Origin: Porticoccaceae bacterium | GTDB taxonomy: Bacteria > Pseudomonadota > Gammaproteobacteria > Pseudomonadales > Porticoccaceae | Direction: 5' to 3' | Assembly (NCBI GenBank): GCA_029242085.1 | Contig: JAQWUP010000061.1 | Span: 1 to 64,000 of the forward strand | Length of the DNA stretch: 64,000 bases | In this document: positions 11,695 to 54,077 of the stretch, piece by piece | Numbering within the stretch: position 1 is the stretch's first letter | How the letters are laid out: each line of letters starts with the position of its first letter | Program-made: the position numbers and the translations under genes | The notes under the pieces: generated by a model | What the model saw: only the letters and a program-made list of their open reading frames with translations | Told to the model about the DNA's origin: nothing | The model's database searches: none

Positions 11695-12190
11695 AATTTT
11701 TGCCACCATCGCTATTTCATTGTGGTGCCTGCCTGTTCTCGCCCTGACCAATGATCGCAGTGATACTATAACTATTGAATCTAACTCAGCCGAGCGGGAC
11801 GAAAAAACCGGCCTCACTCAGTACCAGGGCAACGTGGTTATTAAACAGGGGTCACTGATTATAGAAGCTGATAAGGTGACAGTTTACTATTTGAATAATC
11901 GAGTCAGTCGTATTCTTTGTCTTGGCTTGCCTGCAAGTTATCAGCAACAGGCCGCAGAAGACGGTGGACTGATTGTAGCCAAGGCAGAGACCATAGAATA
12001 TATTCTTGCCGATGATGAAATCAACCTAAAAACCGGTGCAGTACTGTCGCGTAATGGCACCCTTATCAAGGGAGATAGCATTAATTACGATCTGAAAAAT
12101 GAAACATGGAAAGCTAAAGGTAACAATCGAGGCGAACAAAAACGTATTCAGTTAGTTATACCGCCCTCAACTCAAGAGGCCAAAGACTAA
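11681..12190 (+). CDS. lptA: LptA, periplasmic LPS bridge protein
   Basis: Periplasmic OstA-like protein that oligomerises into the beta-jellyroll bridge carrying LPS to LptD. The 169 residues start with a signal peptide ([17 protein letters not shown]), then [36 protein letters not shown] and [16 protein letters not shown], typical of the OstA repeat fold. It overlaps lptC by 14 nt; its final base is the first base of lptB (TAATG). Confidence 0.94.
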
Positions 12191-12915
12191 TGGCACTGTT
12201 AGAAGCGCGCAATCTGGCAAAAGCCTATGGTAAGCGGCCCGTTGTAAAAGACGTATCTATCTCGGTAAAGCAAGGTGAGATAGTTGGCCTACTCGGACCT
12301 AATGGCGCAGGTAAAACTACCTGTTTTTATATGATAATCGGCCTGATCAGTCAGGATGGCGGCACCATTACCGTGGACGGCGCAGATATTACTACTCTGC
12401 CTATGCATGGGCGGGCACGCCGCGGGCTCGGATACCTACCCCAGGAGCCTTCAATTTTCAGGAAGTTAAGCGTCGAAGATAATATTCTGGCAATTTTGGA
12501 AACTCGCAAGAACCTAAGTCGCCAGCAGCGCAACCAACAGCTCGAGGAGCTGCTTCACGAATTTCATATCACCCATCTCGCTAAAAACACCGGCATGAGT
12601 CTTTCTGGTGGCGAGCGCCGACGGGTTGAAATTGCCCGAGCCCTAGCAGCATCACCGCAGTTTATTTTGCTTGACGAACCCTTTGCCGGTGTTGATCCTA
12701 TTTCCGTTAACGATATCAAGAATATTATTCGCCACCTTCGGGACAAGGGAATCGGTGTTTTAATAACCGATCACAATGTTCGCGAAACATTGGATATTTG
12801 CGAGCATGCCTACATTATCGGTGAGGGACATGTTATCGCCGAGGGATCAACTGAACATATTCTCAGTGATGAAAAAGTTCGTAAAACCTACCTAGGTGAA
12901 CATTTTAAGTTGTAA
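12190..12915 (+). CDS. lptB: LptB, ATPase of the LPS export ABC transporter
   Basis: Cytoplasmic ATPase that powers LPS extraction by LptFG. The 241 residues carry Walker [10 protein letters not shown] (36-44), a Q-loop at [10 protein letters not shown], signature [15 protein letters not shown], Walker [13 protein letters not shown] and switch His in [11 protein letters not shown]. The lptFG permease genes are not in the window; they are usually elsewhere in gammaproteobacteria. It is separated from rpoN by 87 nt that hold a dyad and a sigma-54 promoter candidate. Confidence 0.97.
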
Positions 12916-12929
12916 TAACGCTTCATTTA

Positions 12930-12946
12930 GGCAATTGGTGATTGCC
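12930..12946. repeat. 17-bp dyad between lptB and rpoN
   Basis: GGCAAT, five bases, then ATTGCC: a perfect 6-bp inverted repeat. It lies 15 nt after the lptB stop and 12 nt before the sigma-54 promoter candidate. Without a following T-run it is a poor terminator; an operator or activator-binding role is possible. Confidence 0.4.
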
Positions 12947-12958
12947 AGCCCATCATGT

Positions 12959-12974
12959 CGGCACTAAAATTGCA
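12959..12974 (+). promoter_or_regulatory. sigma-54 (-24/-12) promoter candidate for rpoN
   Basis: CGGCAC, TAAAA, TTGCA matches the sigma-54 consensus TGGCAC-N5-TTGCA at 10 of 11 defined bases, with the invariant GG (12960-12961) and GC (12972-12973) separated by exactly ten bases. A start of transcription near 12985 would leave a leader of about 18 nt before the rpoN ATG at 13003. It implies sigma-54 binding at its own gene. Confidence 0.6.
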
Positions 12975-13002
12975 TCTTGTAAAGTTAAAACGATAACTCT
13001 TT

Positions 13003-14553
13003 ATGCGCCCAGGCTTACAGCTAAAAATCAGCCAGCAACTAACGATGACGCCTCAGTTACAGCAGGCCATTCGGTTATTGCAACTGTCGACTCTTGAGTT
13101 GCGCCAAGAGGTGATCGAGCAACTTTATAACAATCCGCTTCTGGAAATAGACGAAGACAATCAGCGCCCTTCAGACGGTAATGACACAGATGGGCACAAA
13201 GAAAGTGATGCCGCCGCAGAGCGACCCAGCGAGATAGATGTCGATTTCAACTCTGATGACCCCAGTTTACCCAGTACCGCCTCCGACGCATCTGAAACAA
13301 CCGTAACCGCAGCCGAAGATGATCGCACCTGGGAAAACGAAGCTACGGCAGACCTACCTGTAGATGCAAACTGGGATGAAGTTTACACTGCACCAGCGCC
13401 CGCCAGCAGTAACAGTGAAGTCAATCTTGAACAGATTTATCAGGTTACAGAATCCCTGCAGGATCACCTACACTGGCAACTTAACTTAACGCCCTTTACA
13501 GACCGTGACCGGGAAATTGCCGAAGCCTTTATAGATTCTATCGATAATAGCGGCATGATCGGCGATAACTTAGAAGATATTGTCGCCCATATACAATACG
13601 AAGACCCTGAAGAGGCCCTTCAAAGTGACGAGCTAATTGCTGTTCTTCATCGTTTGCAGCAGTTTGACCCTCCCGGCATTTTTGGCCGCGATGTAAAAGA
13701 AAGTCTCCTTATCCAACTCAACCAAATGAGTCTTGATACACCCCATATTGTCGAAGCAAAGCGGCTGGTCAGTGAATTTTTGCTCGATATTGCGTCCATT
13801 GATTTAACTCGCCTGACCAAAAAGACCAACTATAGTGCCGATCAGTTGCAGGGCGCTCTGTTATTGATTCGTAGTCTAAATCCCAGACCGGGAGAAGCAC
13901 TGGCAACCGATGATGCAGAATACATAGTGCCGGATGTATTTGTAGAAAAAGTATCGGGGCGCTGGCGGGTACAGCTCAATGATAGCAATATGCCGAGACT
14001 GCGTATCAATGACACCTATAGCAATATGATAAAACGCTCAGATAACAGTGATGAAAATCAATTTCTCAAGAACAATCTCGCTGAGGCGCGCTGGTTTTTA
14101 CGCAGTCTCGAAAGCCGCAATGAAACCCTAATGCGGGTGGCTATGACTATTATTGATCTACAGCAGGGTTTTCTCGACCATGGGCCAATTGCCATGAAAC
14201 CAATGGTACTGTCGGATATTGCCAATAAGCTGGATTTACATGAGTCAACTATATCCAGAGTCACCACCACAAAATACCTCGCCACACCACAAGGTATTTT
14301 TGAATTAAAGTACTTCTTTTCTAGTCATGTTGGAACTGCGGGTGGTGGAGAGTGTTCATCGACTGCAGTTTGCGCTATTCTTAAAACAATGATTAGCGCA
14401 GAGCAGGCTGCAAAGCCATTAAGTGATAGCAAACTAACCTCACTCCTAGAGGAACAGGGAATTCAAGTTGCTCGACGAACTGTCGCAAAATATCGCGAAA
14501 GTATGGGAATCCCCTCGTCTAGCCAAAGAAAACGATTTGAAAACGCCAAGTAG
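13003..14553 (+). CDS. rpoN: RNA polymerase sigma-54 factor
   Basis: Alternative sigma factor for -24/-12 promoters that needs AAA+ activators; governs nitrogen assimilation, flagella and others. The 516 residues show the glutamine/leucine-rich activator region (LKISQQLTMTPQLQQAIRLLQLSTLELRQEV), a long acidic variable region II (about 50-140), the core-binding region, the helix-turn-helix and the RpoN box ARRTVAKYRE (about 490-499). It heads rpoN-hpf-ptsN-rapZ-npr as in other proteobacteria. Confidence 0.98.
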   Translation: MRPGLQLKISQQLTMTPQLQQAIRLLQLSTLELRQEVIEQLYNNPLLEIDEDNQRPSDGNDTDGHKESDAAAERPSEIDVDFNSDDPSLPSTASDASETTVTAAEDDRTWENEATADLPVDANWDEVYTAPAPASSNSEVNLEQIYQVTESLQDHLHWQLNLTPFTDRDREIAEAFIDSIDNSGMIGDNLEDIVAHIQYEDPEEALQSDELIAVLHRLQQFDPPGIFGRDVKESLLIQLNQMSLDTPHIVEAKRLVSEFLLDIASIDLTRLTKKTNYSADQLQGALLLIRSLNPRPGEALATDDAEYIVPDVFVEKVSGRWRVQLNDSNMPRLRINDTYSNMIKRSDNSDENQFLKNNLAEARWFLRSLESRNETLMRVAMTIIDLQQGFLDHGPIAMKPMVLSDIANKLDLHESTISRVTTTKYLATPQGIFELKYFFSSHVGTAGGGECSSTAVCAILKTMISAEQAAKPLSDSKLTSLLEEQGIQVARRTVAKYRESMGIPSSSQRKRFENAK

Positions 14554-14565
14554 AAGGAGCACTGC

Positions 14566-14853
14566 ATGCAAATGACCATTAGTGGACACCACTTAGACCT
14601 TACTGATCCAATTCGCGAGTATGTCACTACCAAACTTTCCAAGCTGGAAAGGCATTACGAACAAATCACTAGCACCTCGGTAATACTCACTGTCGATAAA
14701 CTCCAACAAAAGGCTGAAGCTACCGTTCATGTAAGCGGCGCAGAGCTATTTGCCAATGCAGAGCATGCAGATCTCTATGCAGCGATCGACGCATTGAGCG
14801 ATAAACTAGACCGCCAGCTAATCAAACATAAAGAAAAACATCGAGGCCACTAG
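14566..14853 (+). CDS. hpf: Short ribosome hibernation promoting factor
   Basis: Binds the 30S A/P sites in stationary phase and, with RMF, promotes 100S dimers. At 95 residues it is the short form without the dimerisation domain. Family pattern MQMTISGHHLDLTDPIREYV at the start and ATVHVSGAELFANAEHADLYAAID are visible, and the C-terminus is basic. It starts 12 nt after rpoN with AAGGAG before the ATG. Confidence 0.94.
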   Translation: MQMTISGHHLDLTDPIREYVTTKLSKLERHYEQITSTSVILTVDKLQQKAEATVHVSGAELFANAEHADLYAAIDALSDKLDRQLIKHKEKHRGH

Positions 14854-14861
14854 CTGCTCTA

Positions 14862-15329
14862 ATGAAAATTACTGATGTGCTTACCCCGGCTATGACTCAA
14901 TGTGATTTACCGGGCGGCAGTAAAAAACGCGTGCTTGAAAATCTGTCTTCTTTTATCACCGAACAATTGGGCGGCGACTCAGAGCAGACGGATAACCTAT
15001 TCCACAGTCTAGTCGCTCGCGAGCGGCTCGGCAGCACTGGAATAGGCGAAGGCATAGCCATACCCCATTGTCGCGCACCCGGCTTTAAGCGCATCCATGG
15101 CTGTCTGATCAAACTCAGTAATCCAGTTGATTTTGACGCCCTCGATGACCAGCCCGTCGATCTGATTTTTGCTCTGGTGGTACCAGAGGAAAAAAATGAT
15201 GAGCACCTGGCTACATTGGCCAGAGTCGCGGCGCTGCTACAAGATGAAACATCGCGTCAGTCGCTGCGCCAGTGCAATAGCAATGAAGAGCTGTTCAACA
15301 CCGCTATTCAACTCGAGAGTTCGGCCTAA
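14862..15329 (+). CDS. ptsN: PTS IIA-like nitrogen regulatory protein
   Basis: EIIA-Ntr, the phosphoryl-accepting output protein of the nitrogen PTS that controls potassium transport and stress responses rather than sugar uptake. The 155 residues have the PTS_EIIA type 2 fold and the phosphorylated histidine H69 in GIAIPHCRAPG, followed by DDQPVDLIFALVVPEE. It lies between hpf and rapZ with short gaps. Confidence 0.95.
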   Translation: MKITDVLTPAMTQCDLPGGSKKRVLENLSSFITEQLGGDSEQTDNLFHSLVARERLGSTGIGEGIAIPHCRAPGFKRIHGCLIKLSNPVDFDALDDQPVDLIFALVVPEEKNDEHLATLARVAALLQDETSRQSLRQCNSNEELFNTAIQLESSA

Positions 15330-15332
15330 GTT

Positions 15333-16211
15333 ATGCGCCTTGTCGTTATCAGTGGCCGTTCAGGCTCGGGAAAAACCTCAGCACTCAATATTCTTGAGGA
15401 TGTAGGGTTCACCTGTATTGATAACCTTCCAGTCAGCCTGCTCTCCGACCTGATAACCAAATTAAAATCGGAGAATTTGAGCGACAATCTCAGGCTCGCA
15501 GTCGGTATTGATGCCCGTAATCTGTTCGGCGATCTGAGTCTGATACCGAAAGAACTAGAAACGATCGAAGCTCGCGGTATATCAGTTAACGTGTTATTTC
15601 TGCAGTCGCAACGCGCCGACTTACTCCGCCGCTACAGCGAGACTCGGCGCAAACATCCATTGAGCAGCACAGAGGTAAGCCTCAAAGAGGCCATTGACCT
15701 TGAAAAAGACATTCTGGCGCCGATCGCCGAGATTGCAGATCGCATCATCGATACCTCGGGTCTGTCCCTGCATCAGTTGCGAGATTTAATAAGAAATACT
15801 GTCGTACCCAAAGACACAGAGCATATGGCCATCTTATTTGAGTCATTTGGCTTTAAGCATGGGGTGCCGTCGGACGCAGATTTTGTATTTGATGTGCGCT
15901 GTTTACCCAACCCCCATTGGAAACTCGAACTGCGCGCACAGACTGGTAATGATCCCGCAGTGATAGAATTTTTGGAGAGTCAGGTCGACGTCGCCTCAAT
16001 GCTCGCCGATATTATTGGCTTTTTGACCCGCTGGATTCCCAAACATGAGGTCAATAACCGCAGCTATCTGACCATTGCAATCGGCTGTACCGGCGGCCAA
16101 CACCGCTCAGTCTATTTAGCCAACCGGCTCAACGAGCATTTTTCTCAAACCTATCCGCTGGTGCAGGTAGTGCACAAAGAATTCTCCCCAGTGAAACCCG
16201 CGGAGATTTAA
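15333..16211 (+). CDS. rapZ: RapZ, RNase adapter / nucleotide-binding protein
   Basis: In enterobacteria it guides the sRNA GlmZ to RNase E and so sets GlmS levels for cell-envelope precursors. The 292 residues show Walker A GRSGSGKTSA (8-17), the middle region with VLFLQSQRADLLRRYSETRRKHPL, and the C-terminal domain with IGCTGGQHRSVYLANRL. It sits 3 nt after ptsN and 3 nt before npr, so it belongs to the rpoN operon. Role in this organism inferred from the family. Confidence 0.95.
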   Translation: MRLVVISGRSGSGKTSALNILEDVGFTCIDNLPVSLLSDLITKLKSENLSDNLRLAVGIDARNLFGDLSLIPKELETIEARGISVNVLFLQSQRADLLRRYSETRRKHPLSSTEVSLKEAIDLEKDILAPIAEIADRIIDTSGLSLHQLRDLIRNTVVPKDTEHMAILFESFGFKHGVPSDADFVFDVRCLPNPHWKLELRAQTGNDPAVIEFLESQVDVASMLADIIGFLTRWIPKHEVNNRSYLTIAIGCTGGQHRSVYLANRLNEHFSQTYPLVQVVHKEFSPVKPAEI

Positions 16212-16214
16212 CAG

Positions 16215-16484
16215 ATGATTCGCCGCGAACTGACCATTATTAACAAACTGGGTCTCCATGCCCGTGCCGCAACCAAGCTGGCCAGTGCGGCTGGACACCA
16301 TCAATGTCGTATCCTTACCGGCAAGGAGGAACCATTGGTCGATGCTAAAAGCATTATGTCGCTGATGTTGCTGGCAGCCAATCAGGGCAGCGTCCTTATA
16401 TTTGAGTTTGATGGCCCAGACGAGCAGGCCGCCTGCGACAAAATCACTGGTCTGATAGCCGACTATTTTGGTGAGGGCGAATAA
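16215..16484 (+). CDS. npr: NPr, phosphocarrier of the nitrogen PTS
   Basis: HPr-like protein (PtsO) that passes phosphate from EI-Ntr (PtsP) to PtsN. The 89 residues carry the active histidine H15 in NKLGLHARAATKLAS and the conserved serine region DAKSIMSLMLLAANQGS. ptsP is not in this window. It closes the rpoN-hpf-ptsN-rapZ-npr set. Confidence 0.94.
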   Translation: MIRRELTIINKLGLHARAATKLASAAGHHQCRILTGKEEPLVDAKSIMSLMLLAANQGSVLIFEFDGPDEQAACDKITGLIADYFGEGE

Positions 16485-37838: not shown

Positions 37839-38414
37839 ATGAAGATAAAACACTACGCCCTGATCGCCTGTGCCATGGCACTGCTAGCAGCTTGCGACAA
37901 CGACCCAGTGCCTGAACAAGCCATCATCACAGACAGCGGCTACACCGACGTAGCCGGTGTCAAACTGGAAGCAGGCAAAGCCGCACCAAACTTTAACCTG
38001 CAATCACTGAATGGCGACTGGGTAAAACTGTCAGAACTGCGTGGCACCAAAGTGCTAATGATTTTTTACCGAGGCCACTGGTGCCCATTCTGTGTCGGTC
38101 ATTTGCAAGATATTCAAACCATGCTGCCTGAGCTTGAGAAGCGCGGCTATCAGGTGCTCGCCATCAGCCCAGATGACGCCACCGATATGCAAAAAATGGC
38201 CGACCGCATGGACCGGCCGTACCAGTTCCTGTCCGATGCAGGCTTAAAAGTGACAGACCTTTACGGCATCCGCAGAGATGAAGAACTGCCCCACCCAGCA
38301 ATGATACTGCTGGATGACCAGGGAATAGTGCAGTGGTTTTATATTGGCGAAGATTACAAAACAAGGCCCAGCGCCACTCAACTTAGGCAAGTACTAAATC
38401 GCCTCGATTCCTAA
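37839..38414 (+). CDS. Peroxiredoxin-like (AhpC/TSA, redoxin) lipoprotein
   Basis: 191 residues with a lipoprotein signal (IACAMALLAAC, C19) and a thioredoxin-fold domain carrying C82 and C85 in FYRGHWCPFCVGHLQ, unlike the single peroxidatic Cys of typical AhpC. LAISPDDATDMQKMADR and HPAMILLDDQGIVQWFYIGED complete the fold. Probably envelope-attached thiol redox protein. ATG 37839 is used because AAGGA lies 8 nt upstream; the ATG at 37830 overlaps that site. Confidence 0.85.
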   Translation: MKIKHYALIACAMALLAACDNDPVPEQAIITDSGYTDVAGVKLEAGKAAPNFNLQSLNGDWVKLSELRGTKVLMIFYRGHWCPFCVGHLQDIQTMLPELEKRGYQVLAISPDDATDMQKMADRMDRPYQFLSDAGLKVTDLYGIRRDEELPHPAMILLDDQGIVQWFYIGEDYKTRPSATQLRQVLNRLDS

Positions 38415-38430
38415 CTCCGCCACCCTTAAG

Positions 38431-38711
38431 GAGCGCCGCGACTGAAGGATCCCTATGCTCGAGGTCCTTAGCTGCGCTCAGGATGACAGTGGGAGACTCA
38501 GGGTGACGGTGGGTGACATAAACTTTGTCGTCCTGAAAGAGCGCAGCGACTGAAGGATCTTTATGCTCTCGGGAAGAGATCCTTCGCTGCGCTCAGGATG
38601 ACGGTGGGAGACTCAGGATGACGGTGGGTGGTATAAACTTTGTCGTCCTGAAAGAGCGCAGCGAATGAAGGATCTCTATGCTCTTGGGAAGAGATCCCGG
38701 GTAACGGGATT
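38431..38711. repeat. tandem array of about 110-bp palindromic units
   Basis: Two full units and a partial third, each starting GAGCGC(C/A)GCGA at 38431, 38539 and 38654 (periods 108 and 115 bp). Within a unit, a left arm (CTGAAAGAGCGCAGCGACTG) pairs with a right arm (ATCCTTCGCTGCGCTCAGGA); GGATGACGGTGGGAGACTCA and a linker ATAAACTTTGTCGTCCTGAA repeat between units. The third unit ends in a separate hairpin, ATCCCG-GGTAA-CGGGAT (38694-38710). It lies between the convergent peroxiredoxin-like and acyl-CoA dehydrogenase genes and may act as a bidirectional terminator. Confidence 0.85.
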
Positions 38712-38722
38712 GTCGCTGCTGC

Positions 38723-39865
38723 CTACTTCATCAATTCCCGCGAGATAATCAACTTCATAATCTCATTGGTGCCGCCATAGATACGCTGGATTCTTGAATC
38801 TGCAAAGGCGCGGCACACTGGGTATTCCCACATATAGCCCCAACCGCCAAATAGCTGCAAACATTCGTCCGCTACCTTGCACTGCAAGTCGGTGGTCAAT
38901 AGTTTTGCTTTGGAGGCTGTTACCGTGTCGAGCTTGCCTTCCAGCAGCAACTCGGTGCAGCGGTCGGTGAACACTTCGGCGCAGTCTATCTCGGCCGACA
39001 GCTCGGCCAGTTTAAACTGGGTGTTCTGGAATGAGGCCACTGTGGTGCCAAAAGCTTTGCGCTCTTTGGTGTAGTCAATGGTGGCCTCCAAAATAGCCTT
39101 GGCATTAGCCACTGCACCTACGGCAATCGATAGACGCTCCTGGGGCAGATCTTGCATCAGGTAGATAAACCCTCTGCCCTCTTCACCCAGCAGGTTTTCT
39201 TTGGGGACTCTTACGTCCTGGAAAAACAGTTCTGAGGTGTCTTGGGCTTTTAGGCCCAGCTTATTGAGGTTTTGGCCTTTGCTGAATCCGGGCAGGTCGG
39301 CTTCGACCAGAAACAGGCTGATGCCTTTGGAGCCAGCTGTGGTATCGGTTTTGGCTACTACAATCACCAGACCGGCTTTTTGGCCGTTGGTAATAAAGGT
39401 TTTGGAGCCATTGAGAATATAGTGATCGCCATCCAACACGGCTGTGGTTTTGGTGCCCTGCAAATCCGAACCGGCGCCGGGCTCGGTCATGGCAATTGCT
39501 GTAATCAGCTCGCCGGTGATAAAACGCGGCAGATACTTTTTCTTTTGCTCTTCAGTGCCGTAGCGGACGATATAGGGCACGGTAATATCATTGTGCAAGG
39601 TCCAGCCAAGGCCGGTACAACCGGAGCGGCCAATCTCTTCATTAACAATGCAGTTGTAGCGGAAATCTGTCGCCAAGCCACCATACTCTTCCGGGATCAT
39701 TGGGCATAAAAAGCCCTGCTCACCGGCCTTTAGCCAAATTTCATCACTGACCATGCCGTCTTTTTCCCACTGCTCGTGGTGGGGCATGGCTTCAGTTTCA
39801 ATAAACTTGCGCAGGCTGTCGCGAAACATTTCATGGTCGGAGTCATAGAGGTTTCTTGGAATCAT
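38723..39865 (-). CDS. Acyl-CoA dehydrogenase
   Basis: FAD flavoprotein of about 380 residues that introduces the alpha-beta double bond of acyl-CoA. Signature AIAMTEPGAGSDLQGTKTTAV and NGSKTFITNG in the N-terminal half, and LQLFGGWGYMWEYPVCRAFADSRIQRIYGGTNEIMK at the C-terminus. Chain-length preference is not evident. ATG 39865 (MIPRNLYDSDHEMF) is favoured over the open frame extended 12 codons upstream. No other beta-oxidation gene is adjacent. Confidence 0.93.
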   Translation of the reverse strand: MIPRNLYDSDHEMFRDSLRKFIETEAMPHHEQWEKDGMVSDEIWLKAGEQGFLCPMIPEEYGGLATDFRYNCIVNEEIGRSGCTGLGWTLHNDITVPYIVRYGTEEQKKKYLPRFITGELITAIAMTEPGAGSDLQGTKTTAVLDGDHYILNGSKTFITNGQKAGLVIVVAKTDTTAGSKGISLFLVEADLPGFSKGQNLNKLGLKAQDTSELFFQDVRVPKENLLGEEGRGFIYLMQDLPQERLSIAVGAVANAKAILEATIDYTKERKAFGTTVASFQNTQFKLAELSAEIDCAEVFTDRCTELLLEGKLDTVTASKAKLLTTDLQCKVADECLQLFGGWGYMWEYPVCRAFADSRIQRIYGGTNEIMKLIISRELMK

Positions 39866-39988
39866 AATTAAATTCTCTCGTTTTTTTGAGTATAGTATCA
39901 AGGAGGTTCCGCCAAGGCAGTAACCTTTTGTTAGTACTGACCCAGCTTTTAGTGACTACCGCGTTCTCGCTTATGCTAGATCACAAGC

Positions 39989-40300
39989 TTAAATTGGATA
40001 GCCAGCAACGATAAAAACGATGATTCCAAGACCCACAGTCCAATAAATATTAGCGGTTTTATAAGCTGCTGCCGTGGCGGCACTAGCGCCCCATAGATAG
40101 GGATTGCCGAGGCTGATGTCGAGCTGTTGATTATGCACAAAAACGATCGGCATACAGATAGCTGTCAGCACGGCCGGCCCACTAAAACTGAGTAACTGCC
40201 TTACATTGGGGCCCAATCGCACTGGCAACTTGCCCTCGAGAAACAAATAGCGCGTGCCAAAGGTGACGCAGGCCAGCAATAAAATCGTTATCAATGTCAT
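39989..40300 (-). CDS. azlD: AzlD-family branched-chain amino acid exporter subunit
   Basis: Small polytopic protein (103 residues, about four helices) that pairs with AzlC to export branched-chain amino acids or analogues. The motif ACVTFGTRYLFLEGKLPVRLGP is family-typical. ATG 40300 overlaps the azlC stop by 4 nt; the longer frame to 40339 lies inside azlC. Confidence 0.88.
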   Translation of the reverse strand: MTLITILLLACVTFGTRYLFLEGKLPVRLGPNVRQLLSFSGPAVLTAICMPIVFVHNQQLDISLGNPYLWGASAATAAAYKTANIYWTVGLGIIVFIVAGYPI

Positions 40301-53915: not shown

Positions 53916-54077
53916 ACCATTCTCCATTCAAAATCAATTACTCTATAGAGTATAGACAGGGCGCGGGAATCTGAATGCAACAGATTAGTGCACAATTATT
54001 CTATGCGGCACATAAATTGCATATCACAGTGCACAAGTAGGCATTTAGAGCCTACAGAGCAGTTTTTTGATCAGGTA

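Follow-up and report, generated by a model that had tools for sequence, protein, structure and literature searches.

A sigma-54 site interleaved with a sigma-70 promoter in front of rpoN: a probable self-repression element that changes position and orientation among relatives

In the stretch of Porticoccaceae DNA analyzed here (64,000 nucleotides, hereafter the window), a near-consensus sigma-54 site and a sigma-70 promoter are interleaved in front of rpoN, the gene for sigma-54 itself. Both elements are conserved, the sigma-70 boxes survive the loss of the sigma-54 site, and the position and orientation of the site change in relatives. Here, we propose, with a probability of roughly 70%, that the sigma-54 site is an operator on the factor's own gene, through which sigma-54 would exert negative feedback by occluding the sigma-70 promoter.

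The sigma-54 site in the lptB–rpoN gap

The gap between lptB (12,190–12,915; TIGR04406) and rpoN (13,003–14,553; TIGR02395) spans 87 nt (12,916–13,002) and contains the sigma-54 (−24/−12) site CGGCACTAAAATTGCA at 12,959–12,974 on the forward strand, oriented toward rpoN. The GG (12,960–12,961) and GC (12,972–12,973) are separated by N10, and the C at −12 is present (position 12,973). The earlier count from the sequence-only reading, 10 of 11 consensus bases with exact GG-N10-GC spacing, was reproduced when the sequence was read again, whereas the distance to the rpoN ATG (13,003) is 28 nt, not the 29 nt given there. If the site were used as a promoter, transcription is predicted to start at 12,985. 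By eye, the stretch before the ATG (12,975–13,002) has no clear Shine–Dalgarno sequence, and the transcript leader would measure just ~18 to 26 nt.

Downstream of rpoN, on the same strand, lie hpf (14,566–14,853; TIGR00741), ptsN (14,862–15,329; TIGR01419), rapZ (15,333–16,211; NF003828), and an HPr-family gene (16,215–16,484; TIGR01003), which is named npr by its position and does not reach the NPr model cut-off. The gene order is thus lptA-lptB-rpoN-hpf-ptsN-rapZ-npr, in agreement with the rpoN-hpf-ptsN-rapZ-npr order described before. The genome containing the window measures 2.19 Mb and is 82.65% complete.

An interleaved sigma-70 promoter

A sigma-70 promoter missed by the sequence-only reading, TTGCCA-N17-TAAAAT (12,942–12,970, forward strand), is present in the same gap. 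Its −35 box (12,942–12,947) was identified by a pair scan and by comparison with relatives, its −10 box (12,965–12,970) falls in the spacer of the sigma-54 site, and the predicted start is at ~12,977. With the author's weights, this is the sole forward-strand pair scoring at least 13.6 in the window, and an independent promoter scan also detects it (10/12; 0.4 expected in shuffles). The genome has 12 exact matches to the sigma-54 motif, two of which were left out of the overlap comparison; at the nine other sites examined, several of them inside genes, the best overlapping sigma-70 pair scores no higher than 10.8.

The dyad GGCAAT-N5-ATTGCC, pointed out before as a feature just upstream, is indeed present in the window's species (arms at 12,930–12,935 and 12,941–12,946), but a separate role for it is not supported. 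The left arm is absent from relatives and probably without function, and the right arm coincides with the sigma-70 −35 box. An RNA hairpin formed by the dyad would be no better than shuffles (z = −0.95), and a scan for terminator-like sites found none. A role as operator or terminator was therefore rejected.

The sigma-54 motif in the genome

With one mismatch allowed, the 64-kb window contains 4 matches to the motif where 3.73 are expected from shuffles, and this lack of enrichment speaks for a chance match before rpoN. The exact pattern YGGCAC-N5-TTGCW, on the other hand, occurs 12 times in the whole genome versus once for the backward control pattern. Of the other exact sites inspected, three lie upstream of typical sigma-54 targets, namely amtB (54,006, in the window), flhA, and an enhancer-binding-protein gene. 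The motif is thus employed in this organism. The site before amtB (54,006–54,021), the second exact match of the window, is accompanied by an NtrC-like site at 53,976 and several TGCAC half sites and serves as an internal positive control. On contig C11 of G000 (37,873–40,105; L001, L223, and L224), two genes for enhancer-binding proteins are near each other, and the second has a sigma-54 site 65 nt upstream of its reading frame. Taken alone, the site before rpoN could still be a coincidence, and conservation is thus the decisive test.

Conservation of the site and of the sigma-70 boxes

Upstream regions were read from 105 of the 107 family genomes with a match and from 104 non-family genomes out of 293 searched; loci in which the rpoN start was not found were left out (L079, L134, L149, L157, and L162, and L324 in the f41 set). 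Conservation of the lptB–rpoN element in relatives, which the sequence-only reading had proposed as a check, is clearly observed. The GG and GC are in place in 46 of the 61 genomes of genera g1, g2, and g14, the window's own included. Across the order-wide sample, 162 of 204 genomes have a sigma-54 site before rpoN in either orientation and 42 lack one, where the genome counts include related genomes and are not independent of one another. A forward site scoring at least 12.5 within 250 nt of rpoN is found in 155 of 208 regions, where reversed sequences gave 9 of 208 and shuffles 7.7%; these scores use the author's own weights, built on consensus sequences, and the 208 regions contain the repeat genomes L114–L117, which are outside the 204. 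That the site is so widely conserved, in the genus and across the order, makes a chance match very remote.

The bases that played no part in selecting the sites are informative. In the 45 genomes of g1, g2, and g14 anchored by script (the remaining site-bearing genome, L055, was counted as intact by eye), the C and A after the GG are invariant (45/45), the next C is kept in 42, and the T directly before the GC is present in all 45. In the columns between the −35 box and the site, and from one base past the site onward, the commonest base mostly reaches no more than 30 of 45.

The sigma-70 boxes are kept in 46/46 of the genomes with the site (45 by script and L055 by eye). They also outlast it: among the 15 genomes of g1, g2, and g14 that lost the sigma-54 site, 12 retain a TTG −35 and a TA...T −10, and a second scan confirmed the loss, as a scoring site is present there in 0/15. 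In g14, AG replaces GG in six genomes, and TTGCCA-18-TAAACT or TAAAAT is intact there. Transcription of rpoN thus seems to be driven from the sigma-70 promoter, to which the sigma-54 site would have been added.

Six genomes of the window's genus that lost the site and kept rpoN (L056, L061, and L063–L066) are small (1.2–1.7 Mb). They still encode strong enhancer-binding proteins, one or two per genome; in each of the six g1 genomes that lack the site, one or two strong PF00158 matches were counted (E ~1e-60 or better). A tie between site loss and a low number of enhancer-binding proteins was considered and set aside, because G026 and G031 keep the site with only one such protein and there is no clean association.

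Changes of register across the order

A sigma-70 promoter is in reach of 139 of the 162 sigma-54 sites, where 33.4 would be expected from shuffled flanks. For the other 23, including 4/4 in f44, no such promoter was detected within reach. Measured from the start of the site, the −10 box has an offset that varies by clade, so that the site lies over the −10 box, the −35 box, or the start region. In 45 genomes of the window's family the offset is +6, and in all nine f21 genomes it is +5, with the same motif in named Pseudomonas loci. It is −6 or −7 in seven of nine f20 genomes, which the named Marinobacter loci match. An offset of +34, with TTGC doubling as the −35 box, is found in f9 (2/2), f13 (5/5), f32 (2/2), and parts of f24 and f47, and other genera show offsets of +39 to +47.

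Inversion of the site in Halieaceae

In Halieaceae (f41), the sigma-54 site is reversed in 29/29 genomes read, out of 60 with a match, and controls with reversed sequence gave 0/29 and 1/29. Each of the 29 genomes has a sigma-70 pair just downstream of the reversed site. In this orientation, the site cannot start transcription of rpoN. Elsewhere, the few reversed sites in f6, f14, and f39 may be due to chance, since reverse-strand sites scoring at least 12.5 occur in 25 of 208 regions (six of them f41) and in 15 of 208 control regions. Near-palindromic versions of the site, GGCAY-N5-TTGCC, were found in L076 and L090–L093 and score on both strands; they are possible intermediates for an inversion.

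For much of the order, we rate at about even odds the broader proposal that what selection preserves in front of rpoN is an orientation-free operator rather than a promoter, a sigma-54 site being kept at any place that overlaps the gene's sigma-70 promoter. The site would hence have been free to slide among at least four registers and to invert in Halieaceae with no loss of the self-repressing circuit. In the open-licence literature, which includes few subscription journals, no description of this sliding and inversion was found.

Proposed mechanism and alternative explanations

Opening of promoters bound by the sigma-54 polymerase requires an enhancer-binding protein. In the mechanism we propose, rpoN would be transcribed from the sigma-70 promoter. 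When sigma-54 is plentiful, the sigma-54–RNA polymerase would occupy the interleaved −24/−12 site as a closed complex, which could not open without an enhancer-binding protein; the sigma-70 polymerase would be blocked as a result, and the expression of rpoN would be lowered. The sigma-54 polymerase bound at promoters is described as an inactive state (PMC4591121). What we infer for this organism is that sigma-54 binds here, that it occludes the sigma-70 promoter, and that the effect is negative; the control may extend to hpf-ptsN-rapZ-npr, to judge from the gene order only.

Whether sigma-54 represses its own gene or drives it with an activator had been left undecided by the sequence-only reading. 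An enhancer-binding protein such as NtrC could fire the sigma-54 site and thereby add to a basal sigma-70 promoter, which would amount to positive autoregulation. Such a dual promoter would account for a near-consensus site aimed at rpoN in the window's genus, and the genome encodes NtrB/NtrC together with two further strong enhancer-binding proteins. Moreover, the autoregulation of RpoN in Stenotrophomonas is reported to be positive (PMC8229486), and in a 2025 survey the sigma-54 sites upstream of rpoN are interpreted as promoters (PMC12316311). However, the site is reversed in Halieaceae, and its distance to the sigma-70 promoter changes. A simple pattern scan for NtrC- and IHF-like sites found neither within 400 nt upstream of rpoN, whereas an NtrC-like one precedes amtB. 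A possible enhancer inside lptB was also looked for: extra synonymous constraint at the 3' end of this gene is not significant (entropy 1.41 versus 1.53, p = 0.12, 21/30 loci), with the last 50 codons leaning slightly in that direction. We regard the dual promoter as unlikely, and the interleaved sigma-70 promoter, the boxes that outlast the site in 12/15, the reversal in f41, and the lack of an NtrC- or IHF-like pattern favor repression over activator-driven expression.

The conserved GGCAC..TTGC might instead bind another regulator, or serve the sigma-70 promoter, and merely resemble a sigma-54 site. The near-palindromic versions in L076 and L090–L093 are in keeping with this, because many repressor sites have such symmetry. 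On the other side, the exact sigma-54 spacing is maintained across families at several positions relative to the sigma-70 boxes, and the sigma-70 boxes of g14 persist without these bases. Binding of RpoN is also reported in Pseudomonas aeruginosa, and the relative PA7 has the motif. This explanation is improbable.

If occlusion by sigma-54 operates as proposed, it would explain how cells keep the sigma-54 level steady, and the promoter element of a sigma factor would have served as a repressor site over a long evolutionary time. It predicts the opposite effect on loss of the site to that predicted by the survey, in which sigma-54 transcribes rpoN. In Halieaceae, the reversed site offers a natural experiment in which binding can be told apart from transcription.

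Comparison with known systems

A distant DNA search for E. coli yielded a single match, to rRNA, and named Enterobacterales were taken in its place. In 12 named Enterobacterales loci, no sigma-54 site was found before rpoN. This fits the earlier remark that E. coli rpoN is not known for such a layout, with the E. coli locus itself outside the set. L286, a metagenome-assembled genome titled Klebsiella pneumoniae, has the site and agrees in the length of its rpoN contig and in its site with L193 (G119, family f9, of the window's order); it is probably a mislabelled record to judge by this agreement, and it was not counted among the 12.

The sign of the proposed loop is shared with rhizobia: rpoN of Rhizobium leguminosarum and rpoN1 of R. 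etli are reported as negatively autoregulated (PMC3538637, PMC3916325). These are Alphaproteobacteria, and the comparison covers the sign of the loop. In the 2025 survey (PMC12316311), autoregulation of rpoN is predicted for several classes, among them the gamma-proteobacteria. As in the window, sigma-54 sites are located before rpoN there, and they are read as sigma-54 transcription of rpoN. Section 20 of that survey contains nothing on an overlapping sigma-70 promoter, a shifted position, or a reversed orientation.

In the sigma-54-repressed promoters of E. coli assigned to classes I and II (PMC4551910), the site overlaps the sigma-70 footprint and has a C at −12, and both features are found in the window. 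The E. coli targets are argT, chaC, mdfA, and patA, whereas the target in the window is the sigma factor's own gene. The same report describes, with purified components, that sigma-54 lowers sigma-70 transcription at overlapping promoters.

Another close counterpart is Pseudomonas. In P. aeruginosa, an RpoN ChIP-seq signal is reported upstream of rpoN (PMC8855297), and work on P. putida (Koehler, Alvarez and Harayama 1994) is cited there. The PA7 locus (L273) has a sigma-54 site before rpoN with TATAAT inside. Like the window, Pseudomonas has the sigma-54 site in the lptB–rpoN region with a −10-like box in the spacer (9/9 in f21 and the named loci). The Pseudomonas site, GGCAT-N5-TTGCT, is ~90 to 100 nt from the ATG as compared with ~45 nt in the window, and its −35 matches are weak, unlike that of the window. 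Given the published binding in P. aeruginosa, the site before rpoN would be one more case of a known arrangement. RpoN binding at rpoN and sigma-54 repression of overlapping sigma-70 promoters are known already, and the locus of the window would add to these.
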